Origin: a virus
IMG/VR virus record: IMGVR_UViG_3300025815_000103
Location: 1 to 24,288 of that record
Reading direction: 5' to 3' (one strand)
Length of the DNA stretch: 24,288 nt
Within the stretch, counting starts at the first letter, position 1. Each line of letters begins with the position of its first letter. Shown in pieces: positions 3,045-17,855 of the stretch. Below the pieces are notes generated by a model that did not search any database, had not been told where the DNA came from, and saw nothing but the letters and a program-made list of their open reading frames with translations. Both the position numbers and the translations under genes were made by a program.

Positions 3045-3595
3045 CGCACAAACTTTTGGAGGCCAGCAATCTGTCCAGCAGTCAGCGAGTCTTCGTACTT
3101 GTCCATGATAGACTGGAAAGCTTTCTTCTTGTCGGTCTGCGACTTGATGTAAGCAACAGCCTTGTCCATGATGTTTACAGGTGGTTCGGTGTCGAACTTC
3201 TCTTGTACCTGCTTGACCTTCTTGGACGTCGTGCTTTCTTGCTTGGCGATTGCGTCATTGACTTCATTAGCTGACGCAATAGAAGTGTCGATTCCGATTC
3301 CAAGCATAGCAAGGGCTCGTCCAACAGCTGAGGTTTCGCAGTTCTCAACGTAGCTGGTCTTGTTGATGTTAGATGCACCTTGCACTTCGTGTGCATGTCC
3401 AGTGGCAATAACACGTCCAGTAGCATCTGCGATGGTTGTCTTACATACGCAATCCTCTGGGGTAAGGACGGTGAACTCGGACATGATCGTCCAATCCTTG
3501 TATCGGTCTTCTTGACGAAAGAACTTGATACGCTCGTTGACTTCGACGTACTGCTTACCACGGATGTTGGTTGTTTTGAATTTGTAATTAGACAT
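3041..3595 (-). CDS. Single-strand annealing protein (ERF/Rad52-like)
   Basis: 184 residues. The stretch YVENCETSAVGRALAMLGIG (82-101) followed by SIASANEVNDAI is the hallmark of phage ERF/Sak-type annealing proteins, where the ETSAVGRAL segment belongs to the Rad52-like core. The N-terminal part (FTVLTPEDCVCKTTI) fits the beta sheet of that fold. Together with the PD-(D/E)XK exonuclease two genes downstream it forms a two-part recombination system that would repair or join phage DNA ends. The charged C-terminal 60 residues could bind SSB. Its start overlaps the DnaA-like gene by 8 bases. Confidence 0.8.
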   Translation of the reverse strand: MSNYKFKTTNIRGKQYVEVNERIKFFRQEDRYKDWTIMSEFTVLTPEDCVCKTTIADATGRVIATGHAHEVQGASNINKTSYVENCETSAVGRALAMLGIGIDTSIASANEVNDAIAKQESTTSKKVKQVQEKFDTEPPVNIMDKAVAYIKSQTDKKKAFQSIMDKYEDSLTAGQIAGLQKFVR

Positions 3596-3980
3596 TTGTA
3601 ATCTGTTTTGATTGAATTGTTTCTTCTAGTTTTCGTTGCATGCTTTGTAGTCGGGCGATGCTTGCCTTCACAGAATGAAGCTTGGATTGCCAAGCCTTGT
3701 ACTTCAACGTCTCTCCACACAGTCGCACAGCAGCTATGTAGTTTTTCTCATAGCCAGGCCATGTAGCCATGTTAGCGTCGTGCTTCCTGGTGTGGTGAAC
3801 CACAGTGCTGTGGTCAGAGTCGAAAAGTTTTGCTATTGATGTCGTCGTCAGGTCGTTCTGACGCATGGCGGTCATCATCGCCGCTCTTGCTTTTACTTGT
3901 TCTTGCTTTCTTGATTTATCACGTTTGATTCCAAGTACATGGTAGTACTCTTTCAGTATTTGTCTTCCTTCTTCGTACAT
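3588..3980 (-). CDS. Stand-alone DnaA domain IV-like DNA-binding protein
   Basis: 130 residues. Residues 25-70 match the C-terminal DNA-binding domain of DnaA: a KARAAMMTAMRQ helix, TSIAKLF, then DHSTVVHHTRKH (56-67), the DnaA signature that reads DnaA boxes. There is no AAA+ ATPase domain, so this is only the binding module. It could mark the phage origin, compete with host DnaA, or act as a repressor. A perfect Bacteroidota promoter lies immediately before its ATG, making it the first gene of the recombination operon. The domain call is strong; the role is inference. Confidence 0.8.
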   Translation of the reverse strand: MYEEGRQILKEYYHVLGIKRDKSRKQEQVKARAAMMTAMRQNDLTTTSIAKLFDSDHSTVVHHTRKHDANMATWPGYEKNYIAAVRLCGETLKYKAWQSKLHSVKASIARLQSMQRKLEETIQSKQITNV

Positions 3981-9437: not shown

Positions 9438-9704
9438 TTATTTTGCAACTGACTGGTTTTCAGTAGGTTGGACAAGGCCATCAACTTGGTAAGAGTAGCA
9501 CCAATGACCGTTGTTCAGGGTGAGTACATAGTGGTCGTCCAGTGTGACTGCATCCACCTCATCCCCGTACTTCTCGTTCGGGCCTTGCGTCTGCTCGATT
9601 GCGATTACCTCTGCGATTTTCTGGGCGTCGCGCCCCCATGACCCACGGTATAGCACCTTTGAGCCTTTACGAATGATTCGTGTGTTGAAGATAGATGTTT
9701 TCAT
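9438..9704 (-). CDS. Hypothetical protein, 88 aa
   Basis: Begins MKTSIFNTRIIRKGSKVLY. Probably a small beta barrel (VLYRGSWGR, then DDHYVLTLNNGHWCYSYQVDG). The last codons are similar to those of the 7452-7853 gene at both protein and DNA level, next to near-identical promoters. Function unknown. Confidence 0.75.
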   Translation of the reverse strand: MKTSIFNTRIIRKGSKVLYRGSWGRDAQKIAEVIAIEQTQGPNEKYGDEVDAVTLDDHYVLTLNNGHWCYSYQVDGLVQPTENQSVAK

Positions 9705-10014: not shown

Positions 10015-10325
10015 TCGTCCCCAAAGTTGTAGGTACTGGACGAGGCGGAAATCAAGTACTCATTGATGATTTGAAATGCTGTTTTGTCATCGTTCAGGTA
10101 CTCATCTCGCTCCCCTGACCAGTACGCTGCGGCACGTAGCACCTCCACGCCGTGGTTGTACTTGGGCTTTGGAGTCAGGTCAAATCGTGTACCCTTGAAC
10201 GCATCCTCCAACAGCTTGGCGTTTCCACCATCGGCCTTCATGTATGCGTCGATCAACGCGGACTCGAATCCGCCCGCTGTCTTGCGCCGTTCGTACAGCG
10301 CATCAATGTGTTGTTGTGTTTTCAT
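10011..10325 (-). CDS. Hypothetical protein, 104 aa
   Basis: Begins MKTQQHIDALYERRKTAGG. Mainly helical, with an acidic C-terminus (SSSTYNFGDE). ATGA overlaps on both sides. No domain recognised. Confidence 0.75.
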   Translation of the reverse strand: MKTQQHIDALYERRKTAGGFESALIDAYMKADGGNAKLLEDAFKGTRFDLTPKPKYNHGVEVLRAAAYWSGERDEYLNDDKTAFQIINEYLISASSSTYNFGDE

Positions 10326-10711
10326 TTTACAAAGATTTCTTTTTCATTCTCAAGGTCGTAGATAGCCCGCTCCCCGCGCTTCGCAGCGAGTGCAAGTGCT
10401 TCCTGCTCGTCATCGAGGACGTTGCACAAATCGAAGACAATCTTGCCGTCTTCGACCCATGTGCCTATGACCACCGCAGACTCGCGCTCCAGAGCCAACT
10501 CAGCTTGATAGAAGAAGCGGTTATACGTCTGCGTGAAAGCCATTTCGTTGTCCATATCGCAGGACTTTTCGGGTACGATTCCGCCCACTACATACCCATA
10601 CTTAGGTACATAGAACTCGCGGTTGTCCATGATTCCGATTGAAGAGCCACCAGTCAGCATCGTGCTGCCGTATGCGAAGCACATAGCTTCGTCGAAAGAA
10701 AAGTTTTTCAT
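10322..10711 (-). CDS. Conserved phage-type hypothetical protein, 129 aa
   Basis: Begins MKNFSFDEAMCFAYGSTML. The C-terminal part, from VIGTWVEDGKIVFDLCNVLD to ERAIYDLENEKEIFV, resembles a short domain I associate with other phage early regions, where it has no known role. The leader AAACTCTAAATCTCT before its ATG is almost the same as that before the gene at 10964, so leader and perhaps regulation are shared. Confidence 0.7.
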   Translation of the reverse strand: MKNFSFDEAMCFAYGSTMLTGGSSIGIMDNREFYVPKYGYVVGGIVPEKSCDMDNEMAFTQTYNRFFYQAELALERESAVVIGTWVEDGKIVFDLCNVLDDEQEALALAAKRGERAIYDLENEKEIFVK

Positions 10712-10722
10712 AGAAAAGAGAT

Positions 10723-10800
10723 TTAGAGTTTGAACGATTCGTCAGCAACGTAGGTCACGCCCACCACGAAGGCAAGCAGGACAGCGTACACCACCCACAT
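10723..10800 (-). CDS. Membrane micropeptide, 25 aa
   Basis: MWVVYAVLLAFVVGVTYV is one hydrophobic span and the tail is ADESFKL. Its ATG shares a base with the TGA of the upstream gene (TGATG), and it fills an otherwise empty gap. The size and position suggest a membrane-active accessory peptide; a holin role would be a guess, since a lysis gene lies in the other arm. Confidence 0.55.
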   Translation of the reverse strand: MWVVYAVLLAFVVGVTYVADESFKL

Positions 10801-10964
10801 CATTGGGCAGTTCCGATTAAGTCCTCCAGCTTCATCTGCTCATCGCACGGGAGTGCATCCCAGCCCGCTGTGCAGGTGATGGTAGAACCAAGGAGTTGAA
10901 CATCGTTGAACAAGGCCGAAGCCATCTGCGCTTTCTTGCGCTCTGTGTTTGTGCTGTGTAGCAT
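10800..10964 (-). CDS. Small protein, 54 aa
   Basis: Begins MLHSTNTERKKAQMAS. The frame is open further upstream to 11033, but that would place the start beyond the promoter at 11002-11034, so ATG 10964 is the sound choice. Two Cys (CTAGWDALPC) could form a pair. First gene after promoter copy C. Function unknown. Confidence 0.6.
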   Translation of the reverse strand: MLHSTNTERKKAQMASALFNDVQLLGSTITCTAGWDALPCDEQMKLEDLIGTAQ

Positions 10965-11001
10965 CTGAGAGAGATTTAGAGTTTGGCTGAATTGCCGACT
11001 G

Positions 11002-11034
11002 CAAAGATAAGGCAAAGAACCCTTAACTTCCAAA
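11002..11034 (-). promoter_or_regulatory. Early promoter cassette, copy C
   Basis: Leftward: TTTG (11034-11031), 21 bases, TATCTTTG (11009-11002), with the same AAATAAATTTGGAA block as copies A and B. Directly upstream is the hairpin TACCCT/AGGGTA (11044-11057), the first of the hairpin field. Confidence 0.8.
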
Positions 11035-11058
11035 TTTATTTTTTACCCTTTAGGGTAG

Positions 11059-11316
11059 TTAGTCGATGACATCGTACATCTCCCATGTGGGAGCGTCATC
11101 ATGCCAGCACACCACCGTGTGTGACTCACACGCTGGCTCGAACACGTAGTCCGCGCTCTCTACTTCTTTGAAGTAGCAGCAATCATCCCCCTCTTTGAGG
11201 ATGATATCGACAGCCCAGTTCGCGGCGCTCTCTGCGTCTGCGAAGTTGCGCTTGCAGCGGAACTCTCCGCCGTGTTCCCCGAAGGGGAAAACAAAAGCAA
11301 AAATTGGTTGACTCAT
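11059..11316 (-). CDS. Paralogous hypothetical protein 1, 85 aa
   Basis: Begins MSQPIFAFVFPFGEHGGEF. It resembles the neighbour at 11366-11611: an opening strand (FAFVFP against YFFQLP), GG, an R-x-F step, DAxxAxxW/DAATEWV, then an acidic run before YF. So the two arose by tandem duplication. Their leaders also match: a TAAAATC/GATTTTA hairpin ends on the start codon. Several field hairpins lie within the gene, for example at 11080-11093, 11116-11132 and 11160-11176. Function unknown. Confidence 0.7.
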   Translation of the reverse strand: MSQPIFAFVFPFGEHGGEFRCKRNFADAESAANWAVDIILKEGDDCCYFKEVESADYVFEPACESHTVVCWHDDAPTWEMYDVID

Positions 11317-11365
11317 AAAATCGTAGATTTTAAAGGTTAGAAAAAACAGAATAAGTTATTGACTT

Positions 11366-11611
11366 TCAGTCAATTTCACGAGCGAAGTGGTGGTGGTGAA
11401 ATACCGAATCCCACCAATCCCACTCGACCGCCCAGTATCCACCTACGTGCTTACGATCGAGCGCACTCTGGCCCTCGTATGCAAGCTGGAAGTAGATGAG
11501 GTCGTCATCGGACTCGACCATGAAGTCCTCCACCCACTCGGTGGCCGCGTCTATGCTCTCGAAAGAGCGCACGACTCCCCCTTCGGGGAGTTGAAAAAAG
11601 TATGCTTTCAT
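11366..11611 (-). CDS. Paralogous hypothetical protein 2, 81 aa
   Basis: Begins MKAYFFQLPEGGVVRSF. I chose ATG 11611, not the longer reading to 11692, because only this start leaves the shared leader hairpin (11611-11627) in front of the gene as in its paralogue. The C-terminal part is rich in Trp and His (WDWWDSVFHHHHFAREID), which could bind metal. A hairpin (11358-11374) covers its stop codon. Function unknown. Confidence 0.7.
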   Translation of the reverse strand: MKAYFFQLPEGGVVRSFESIDAATEWVEDFMVESDDDLIYFQLAYEGQSALDRKHVGGYWAVEWDWWDSVFHHHHFAREID

Positions 11612-11642
11612 AAAATCAAAGATTTTAAAGGTTAAACTTCGT

Positions 11643-12383
11643 TTAAACAGCAGGGGCAAAAGATGGCTCCAACATCGGATTGCTTTCAGCAATCAACGCA
11701 AGTGCCTCCAGTCGCTCTCGCTCCAGCACTGCCGAGCGGTGCCGAGCCATAGCCTCCTCTGGAGACTCTCCTGGAAGGAGAGTCAGCTTCATTTGTTCCT
11801 TCTTTCGAACCTTCGGTTCGACTACTTGAACCTCTTTACGAGGTTCAAACGGTTGAGCATCACCTTCGGTGATGGCATGAACAACTTTGGTCTTCACTGC
11901 TCTGCCAACTTTGTTGGCAGTAGCAGTCTTAGCTTGAGTTAACTCAAGCCCAGCAGTTGACGACCCTTTGGGTCGTCGAACAGTCTTCTTCGAAGACTTC
12001 TTAGCTTTCTTCGAAAGCTTTCTAGCAGCAGCTCTCTCCTCTTGGAGGAGAGCATGAAGCTCCTTGTTCAGAACGGAACGTTCTGCTTTCTTGAGCTTCT
12101 TACCAGAGGTAAGAATAGCCTCAATCTCAGCCTTACGGCTGGTCTTTGAAGCCGACTTCGAAGCCTTTGGCTTCGCTTTAGAAGCCTTTGGCTTCTTCTT
12201 TGACTTCGAAGCCTTCGGCTTCGGTTGCTCCTTCGGAGCCTCAATGGCTTCGATGAAGTTCGACAACGAAGCTAAAGCTTCGAGAGTAGCCTCCTTCTTA
12301 GAAGGAGTAGGGTTGAAAACAAAGCTGTTTACAGCTTTCTTAGCTGCCTTCAGCAGCTCTGAGTGGGAAATGGTGTTTGCCAT
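11643..12383 (-). CDS. Lys/Ala-rich basic protein encoded by hairpin DNA
   Basis: 246 residues. Residues 1-50 are a helical head (MANTISHSELLKAAKKAV onward). From 55 to 80 KPKASK occurs three times (55-60, 64-69, 71-76), and basic Lys/Ala/Ser tracts continue to about 140, much like the tail of histone H1-like proteins. The last 45 residues are helical and less basic. A DNA- or RNA-binding, condensing role is likely from composition alone; no named family is recognised. About half of the gene lies in hairpins, and their codon phase shows selection on both protein and structure. No clear promoter is seen before it; a weak TTTG near 12454 lacks a good -7 box. Confidence 0.65.
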   Translation of the reverse strand: MANTISHSELLKAAKKAVNSFVFNPTPSKKEATLEALASLSNFIEAIEAPKEQPKPKASKSKKKPKASKAKPKASKSASKTSRKAEIEAILTSGKKLKKAERSVLNKELHALLQEERAAARKLSKKAKKSSKKTVRRPKGSSTAGLELTQAKTATANKVGRAVKTKVVHAITEGDAQPFEPRKEVQVVEPKVRKKEQMKLTLLPGESPEEAMARHRSAVLERERLEALALIAESNPMLEPSFAPAV

Positions 12384-12976
12384 AACTGTTAGATATTAAG
12401 ATTAAAAGAAGAATTCACAGAATTCATTCTTCTTATAATCTATATCTACTTCCTCCAAACTCTTTCGGTATCAGCTTGCTGATACTCCTGCGGTTTGGTA
12501 GCCAAACATATGAGCATCGAAGATGCTTCAGCGCGTTTGGACAAACGGCCTCAGTTTCAACCAGTTAGTAGCAGTTTCTTAAACTGCTAGTTAGCCTTCA
12601 GTAATGAAGGCTTGTAGTTCGACCATAGGTCGAGGAGGGGGATTGTCCTGCCCTTCTCCTCAGCAGTTTTACTGCTGTCACTTCCAGCGGTTGATGAATC
12701 AACCGAGGGCAATCCTCTTAGTATCAGGCTGTTAGCCTGCTACTAAAAGCTGAAAAGTATAGCAGAATCTCAAGAGATTCTGAGGTACGGGGTCTGCCAA
12801 ATCGATTTTGGAACGTAGTTCCAAGCGGTCTATACTATATATAATCCCTCAGATCTGTATTACACACCTATTTTCCAAGCCTGGTTGTGCACACGATATC
12901 CACGAAACGACCAGCAAATCTGTTTAGTAAGCTGTTTATCAGAGACTTATGGGGATTGCTTAAAGCATATTATAGA

Positions 12977-13008
12977 CTTGCATTTTTAAAAAAAAAGCTG
13001 TAACTTCG
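12977..13008 (+). promoter_or_regulatory. Possible rightward promoter
   Basis: CTTG (12977-12980), exactly 20 bases rich in T and A, then TAACTTCG (13001-13008). The spacing equals that of the early promoters, but each element differs by one base from the consensus. It would start the late arm about 150 bases before the first gene. Confidence 0.45.
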
Positions 13009-13149
13009 CCAAAGCATTGTTAGCGATGATACTTCGAAGCTGTTTTGATTCTAAGGAGCTTCTAGAGGGGTTTGCAAGTGCAAACAAACAGACACTACGA
13101 AGCGTCAATCAAACTAATGAAGCTGTGAGAGGCGCAAAAACTGTTTTAT

Positions 13150-17578: not shown

Positions 17579-17804
17579 CTATCCTTCGACTATAGATTAC
17601 TACAGCGATGAATGGACTCATGACTGGTCTACCGATGTATCTAGCACCGTACATTTTAATCCATGTAACACGCCTAACCCACCGTGGTGGTGCGAAGAAC
17701 ACGAACCAATCCCGATCGAACCGAACATTTTAATGATTGTTGGAATGTTCACATTTGGAACATTACTTTTGACAAAGAAATGCACCCGTAGCTCAGCTGG
17801 ATAG
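17550..17804 (+). CDS. Small membrane protein ending inside tRNA-Arg
   Basis: 84 residues. Begins [18 protein letters not shown], with a Pro/Trp-rich middle ([17 protein letters not shown]) holding two cysteines. One membrane span follows (about 58-76, [19 protein letters not shown]). The tail CTRSSAG and the stop are read from the first 23 bases of the tRNA gene, so the original C-terminus may have been replaced when the tRNA arrived. The topology would leave the N-terminal part outside the cytoplasm if inserted tail-first. Function unknown. Confidence 0.6.
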
Positions 17805-17855
17805 AGCATCTGCCTTCTAAGCAGACGGTCACAGGTTCGAATCCTGTCGGGTGTA
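17782..17855 (+). tRNA. tRNA-Arg (anticodon TCT)
   Basis: 74 bases fold as a full cloverleaf: acceptor GCACCCG/CGGGTGT with a G-T end pair, D arm GCTC/GAGC, anticodon arm TCTGC-CTTCTAA-GCAGA with anticodon TCT, T arm ACAGG-TTCGAAT-CCTGT and discriminator A. CCA is not encoded. It reads AGA, a codon used often in the late genes. Confidence 0.95.

Follow-up and report, generated by a model that had tools for sequence, protein, structure and literature searches.

The window analysed here, 24,288 nucleotides of a viral genome from IMG/VR, contains a field of short, perfectly paired hairpins within and around a single leader and gene. Our best explanation, to which we give an even chance of being right, is that of a gene-bounded palindrome field whose structure is selected and renewed by template switching. 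The field itself is real and not an artefact. Defining hairpins as non-overlapping, with a perfect Watson–Crick stem of at least 6 bp and a loop of 3–5 bases, we counted 40 at positions 11044–12824, compared with 1.56 ± 1.21 in dinucleotide shuffles (n = 200; maximum 5) and with only 25 in the remaining 22,507 bp of the window. In synonymous-codon shuffles, which keep both the protein and its codon usage, the gene at 11643–12383 had 2.0 ± 1.3 hairpins; 20 are observed, and across seven phages the excess corresponded to z = 9.4–15.9. Composition- and codon-preserving controls were thus both far exceeded, confirming the hairpin-rich field proposed in the first-pass annotation and the scarcity of hairpins elsewhere; the proposed number, about 48, was close to ours. 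The non-coding leader is as hairpin-dense as the gene. As had also been claimed, the stems are unlike one another and no copied repeat underlies them, the 40 field hairpins having 37 distinct inner 6-mers.

The field had been described as unbroken. In its dense core (11640–12824), a non-coding leader of ~440 nt and a 246-aa gene form one unit with ~30 short perfectly paired hairpins; the remainder is a thinner tail. The elements of the field are as follows.

11643–12383, minus strand: 246-aa Lys/Ala-rich gene with 20 perfect hairpins within the coding sequence; protein conserved in relatives
12384–12824, minus strand: non-coding leader with 12 hairpins, their positions constant in relatives and their stems altered
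12391–12447, minus strand: long leader hairpin AGATATAGATTATAAGAAGAATGAATTC-tgt-GAATTCTTCTTTTAATCTTAATATCT, just 5′ of the ATG and paired across 15 aligned relatives
11044–11640, minus strand: thinner tail of the field, 7 hairpins versus 0.39 expected, over two small downstream genes
11366–11602 and 11059–11316, minus strand: the small downstream genes under the tail
11611–11627, minus strand: dyad TAAAATC-TTT-GATTTTA, its last base being the A of the start codon of the next gene; such a dyad is conserved there in relatives
11316–11332, minus strand: second dyad TAAAATC-TAC-GATTTTA, whose last base is likewise the A of an ATG, that of gene 11059–11316

Several pairs of the long leader hairpin show two-sided changes among the 15 aligned relatives, and the leader also has conserved unpaired linkers. 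Hairpins are also positioned on or at the gene's stop codon and over the start codon of the gene that follows. The AAAATC-NNN-GATTTT dyads at the ATGs of two consecutive small genes could represent an operator or a translation-control hairpin. Gene 11643–12383 is presumably translated. Its product had no match in Pfam, PHROGs or PDB, and the predicted structure consists of helical segments and low-confidence stretches (pTM 0.26). Three GAAGCC-type stems come from repeated KPKAS-like motifs of this protein. An Rfam search with the window and the field returned no family, only weak sub-threshold matches; sigma-70 promoter matches were at chance level, and terminator-like matches were mostly the field hairpins themselves. 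Downstream of the field, three small genes (9438–9704, 10322–10711 and 10800–11033) are common to the field carriers compared, and their homologues are missing in one field-free genome (G008), few genomes having been compared; they are possible functional partners of the field.

The leftward arm, presumably the early one, begins with gene 11643–12383 and also includes primase/helicase, exonuclease-VIII-like and HTH genes and a gene for a DnaA C-terminal-domain protein. Endolysin, terminase and portal are encoded in the rightward arm. A conserved tRNA-Arg (17782–17855; TCT anticodon in relatives) precedes the terminase region, and some relatives have a second tRNA, tRNA-Met. The field had been placed exactly at the divergent junction of the two arms; it does cover the start of the leftward arm, but it stops short of the rightward arm. 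The following features lie beside the field or may relate to those that do.

12841–12863, minus strand: conserved ~25-bp motif (window form GTAATACAGATCTGAGGGATTAT, common form GTAATACAGATCGTGGGGATTAT), marking the start of the field
12870–13060, no strand assigned: hairpin-poor conserved non-coding region 5′ of the motif, with a DnaA-box-like site and a skew minimum nearby
12885–12893: DnaA-box-like site TTGTGCACA, the window copy having one mismatch
3588–3980, minus strand: phage gene whose product contains the DNA-binding C-terminal domain of DnaA (Pfam Bac_DnaA_C, a match of 34.4 bits that exceeds the cutoff)

Hairpins are dense only downstream of the motif. Of 20 sequences examined, most have DnaA-box-like sites with at most one mismatch, chiefly ~500–630 bases 5′ of the gene, and the protein encoded at 3588–3980 could possibly read them. 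The cumulative GC skew of the window has its minimum at the field region, as does that of a 63.5-kb relative; gene direction switches there too, a confounder. Taken together, the skew minimum, the conserved motif and the DnaA-box-like sites suggest that a replication origin probably adjoins the field; region 12870–13060 is a probable replication origin or divergent promoter region. At 12980–13060 the divergent intergenic region also holds a very conserved block, CAGCTTCGAAG..TTATCGCTAACA..GGCGAAGTTACAGCTTTTTTTTT, with a poly-T tract.

We compared the window with relatives in a set of 24 non-redundant IMG/VR sequences, the window included. The 23 other carriers, which like all carriers of the field are metagenome contigs, are 58–87% identical to the window over the field. 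Every one of the 24 sequences has a hairpin excess at the equivalent place. On the alignment, hairpins form 39 clusters represented in at least six sequences each, a few of these clusters being adjacent counts of one hairpin. As many as 12 different stems occur at one hairpin position, and 93–96% of stem cells are Watson–Crick. Depending on the phage, the first hairpin of the leader is, for instance, ttggaac-TAC-gttccaa, tcggagt-GTA-actccga, tcggtgc-TAC-gcaccga or ttggggc-ATC-gccccaa. Divergence in the leader is 0.40 for stems versus 0.38 for linkers; nevertheless, the stems remain paired. Moreover, RNAalifold identified two-sided changes at 20 of 48 leader pairs and one-sided standard-pair changes at only 2. 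The earlier view that structure rather than sequence is kept is therefore borne out by same-place hairpins with changing stems.

The edges of the field were followed in 17 relatives. Hairpin density, mostly below 0.2 per 100 bp upstream, rises within ~100 bp of the motif to 1–2.7 per 100 bp inside the field and is 0.1–0.5 beyond 100 bp past the stop codon; the drop is sharper with the gene end as the alignment point of the profiles than with the motif. Relatives have 2–9 hairpins in the 600 bp 3′ of the gene, and the remaining genome is at background. A motif-based search again found the field carriers, with 17–27 hairpins per kb compared with at most 8 at chance unrelated loci.

Among cultured phages, no near relative was found at the DNA level or for the gene. 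The terminase has relatives at <60% identity, chiefly in Flavobacterium elemo phages, Cellulophaga phages and a Manatee Spring phage; 50 kb of each of the elemoA and Manatee Spring phages was scanned and revealed no field. The gene was absent from the bacterial genomes searched, which gave no prophage or host link. The terminase relatives, as the only pointer to the host, suggest Flavobacterium or Cellulophaga. The field carriers form an environmental phage family related to Flavobacterium phages. In the 63.5-kb relative, a virion protein (L252, 10945–15285) has a crAssphage-type muzzle C-terminal domain (Pfam crAss_MUZ_C), which hints at kinship with crAss-like phages. Pieces of what appears to be a single giant virion ORF are spread across contig ends (L250, 28–3414; L253, 3–3515; L252, 17516–19999), and those searched had no informative database matches.

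Within the gene, synonymous positions carry a signal of their own. Pooled divergence at fourfold-degenerate sites is 0.28 in stems versus 0.42 outside, and it is lower in stems in 145 of 153 pairs. The codon phase is biased as well: 69 of the 108 distinct gene hairpins pair third with second bases, and only 10 pair third with third. In the segment encoding FEPRKEV, carriers have GAG CCT CGT AAG GAG GTG where hairpin-free relatives have GAA CCT CGT AAA GAG GTT, so that the two groups differ synonymously in both arms. The phase bias, and some of the reduction in stem divergence, could also result from template switching combined with protein constraint.

A sister clade (L255–L259, including contigs of L042 and L047) has kept the C-terminal domain of the gene, and L255 and L256 have also kept the motif. 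In this domain (~270 bp), however, the clade has 0–1 hairpins versus 4–7 in field carriers. In the protein tree (25 rows, midpoint root, many weak forks) the sister clade falls inside the carriers with clade support of 99/99. It is therefore more likely to have lost the field than to have lacked it primitively. Since this lineage has the gene without the field, the field is dispensable there and not universally needed. Absence of such a field at this place in related phages had been named in the first-pass annotation as grounds for refutation, and to that extent the sister clade speaks in part against the annotation.

We next consider how the stems change. In pair counts that rest on MAFFT alignments of diverged sequence, G-T and A-C mismatches in field stems number 52 and 43 (31:24 in the leader, 21:19 in the gene), compared with 19 and 0 in the tRNAs from these phages (Fisher p = 5e-5). 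Among close pairs, in which multi-base changes might be seen as single events, the usable ones were ~88–91% identical; nearer pairs had almost no stem changes. Selection on RNA is expected to tolerate G-U above A-C, as in the tRNAs; in field stems there is no such excess, although compensatory changes are present. The arms of field stems are thus homogenised to Watson–Crick pairing without strand preference. Loops point in the same direction. Where leader loops differ at the same position, 41 of 250 pairs are exact reverse complements, and none is complementary only or reversed only; these comparisons share ancestry and are not independent events. The corresponding values for random loop pairs are 6.9% reverse complements, 3.4% complements and 2.9% reversals. 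Identical stems with inverted loops are also found, such as tcgacc-TAT and tcgacc-ATA, or tatcag-CTTG and tatcag-CAAG. Leader triloops show some sense-strand bias. Folding energies of sense and antisense strands, tried as a test for RNA, were alike, but so were those of the tRNA control, making the comparison uninformative.

Arm homogenisation together with spacer inversion is the footprint of template switching (PMC8604942, PMC8794818). The symmetry of pairing between strands and the inverted loops therefore suggest that template switching plays a part in the field. They also mean that perfect stems alone are no proof of selection for function. The claim that the structure itself is selected consequently stands in part: the structure is conserved, but its perfect stems have lost weight as proof.

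Our favoured explanation combines the two processes. A change in one arm would be followed by the copying of one arm onto the other during DNA synthesis, presumably by template switching, and this copying would keep stems perfect and flip loops. Selection would keep the stem-loops in the leader–gene unit, exploiting synonymous codon freedom inside the gene. The selected form would most likely be the stem-loop that arises when the origin-proximal unit is single-stranded, either in unwound DNA, which we favour, or in the nascent transcript, and the stem-loops would serve as a structural platform and not as a site recognised by its sequence. Selection on structure is supported by the excess over both kinds of shuffles, the fixed positions of rewritten yet paired stems in 24 sequences, the reduced fourfold-site divergence and codon-phase preference, and the field edges that follow the gene. 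On the other hand, the sister clade does without the field, template switching under protein constraint could lower synonymous divergence in stems, and a strand-symmetric role does not predict the strand bias of leader triloops. More tentatively, the field may represent a novel type of phage element, in which DNA stem-loops of unrelated sequence are densely arrayed over an early leader and gene beside the origin, read by shape instead of sequence and kept up by template switching; we regard this as possible rather than probable. Candidate readers of shape would be the encoded Lys/Ala-rich protein or the replication machinery.

Could the field be purely mutational? A unit prone to template switching, being single-stranded near the origin or highly transcribed, would then perfect near-palindromes into functionless hairpins. 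Strand-symmetric pairing, loop inversions and the dispensability of the field in the sister clade all agree with this, neutral repeat conversion has been proposed for the coding palindromes of Nematomorpha (PMC6649704), and in yeast, mutation at quasi-palindromes is known to be associated with transcription (PMC3820800). We nevertheless find it doubtful that mutation is the whole story: hairpin positions are kept at ~60–80% identity, the edge at the gene end is sharp with no gradient from the origin, hairpins elsewhere in the genome stay at background level, and synonymous changes in both arms of the FEPRKEV hairpin are not expected from one whole-arm copying.

Selection might instead act at the RNA level, on a long, densely structured leader–gene mRNA for which template switching merely supplies mutations. 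Such an RNA might be stabilised by its structure, be shielded from RNases or from RNA-targeting defence, control translation or act as a decoy. The coincidence of the field with one leader–gene unit, the hairpins on the next gene's start codon and on or at the stop codon, the conserved unpaired leader linkers and some sense-strand loop bias are in line with this reading. We consider it rather unlikely, given that field stems, unlike the tRNAs, lack an excess of G-U over A-C and that no Rfam family matches.

Promoters in hairpin form that serve a virion RNA polymerase, such as those of phage N4, are brought to mind by the 6–9 bp stems with mostly 3-base loops, the adjoining early arm and the relative with the apparent giant virion ORF; with ~30 hairpins of unrelated stems and varied loops, most of them inside a gene, and no RNA polymerase match in the giant ORF pieces searched, this idea is highly improbable and we rejected it. 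Finally, chance, base composition or a low-complexity Lys/Ala protein, to which the three stems from KPKAS-like repeats might be ascribed, is refuted as the origin of the hairpins by both kinds of shuffles, by the homologous domain of the sister clade with its 0–1 hairpins and by the equally dense non-coding leader, leaving it a negligible likelihood.

The field is a compact natural example, and a well-sampled one, of dozens of perfect hairpins evolving in parallel in coding as well as non-coding DNA; the field-free sister clade serves as a control. It makes two questions testable: whether compensatory changes without G-U intermediates arise by template switching or stepwise, and whether a phage uses a DNA or RNA stem-loop array by shape alone.

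The closest analogue is found in the mitochondria of Nematomorpha, whose translated genes contain perfect inverted repeats and almost no imperfect ones (PMC6649704). The phage gene likewise carries perfect inverted repeats within a conserved gene (20 hairpins, z 9–16). Codon phase is biased in both systems, and conversion by template switching has been proposed for Nematomorpha (PMC6649704). However, the palindromes of Nematomorpha reach 284 bp, are scattered over many genes and are gained and lost among species (PMC6649704), whereas the phage stems are 6–9 bp long, lie by the dozen in one leader–gene unit and keep their positions across the clade. Template switching and quasi-palindrome correction described elsewhere (PMC8794818, PMC8604942, PMC3820800) are alike in arm homogenisation, two-sided changes without G-U steps and spacer inversion. 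Published template switches are described as single events, dispersed across genomes or RNA genes; those of the phage would be concentrated in one unit of ~1.2 kb with conserved positions.

In phage N4, the promoters of the virion RNA polymerase lie close to early genes and are likewise short DNA hairpins whose loops have 3 bases (PMC4496689). They are few and have required stem and loop bases, in contrast to the numerous, sequence-unrelated hairpins of the field. Large RNAs of the GOLLD type are known from phages. The large ornate RNAs GOLLD and ROOL (PMC12286853) resemble the field in being long structured elements. The field differs from them in having no Rfam match and no G-U signature and in being more than half protein gene. 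REP, BIME and RPE are palindromes found in and between genes as copies of one sequence. Their shared stem sequence sets them apart from the phage field, and a copied palindromic repeat of this kind is excluded by its unshared stems. The claim that the field has no described phage counterpart held up: the literature searched on tandem phage hairpins and hairpin density contained no precedent for such an array, and we found no cultured phage with a field. Template switching as a molecular process has been described before, but not, in the literature searched, as concentrated in one conserved phage unit.
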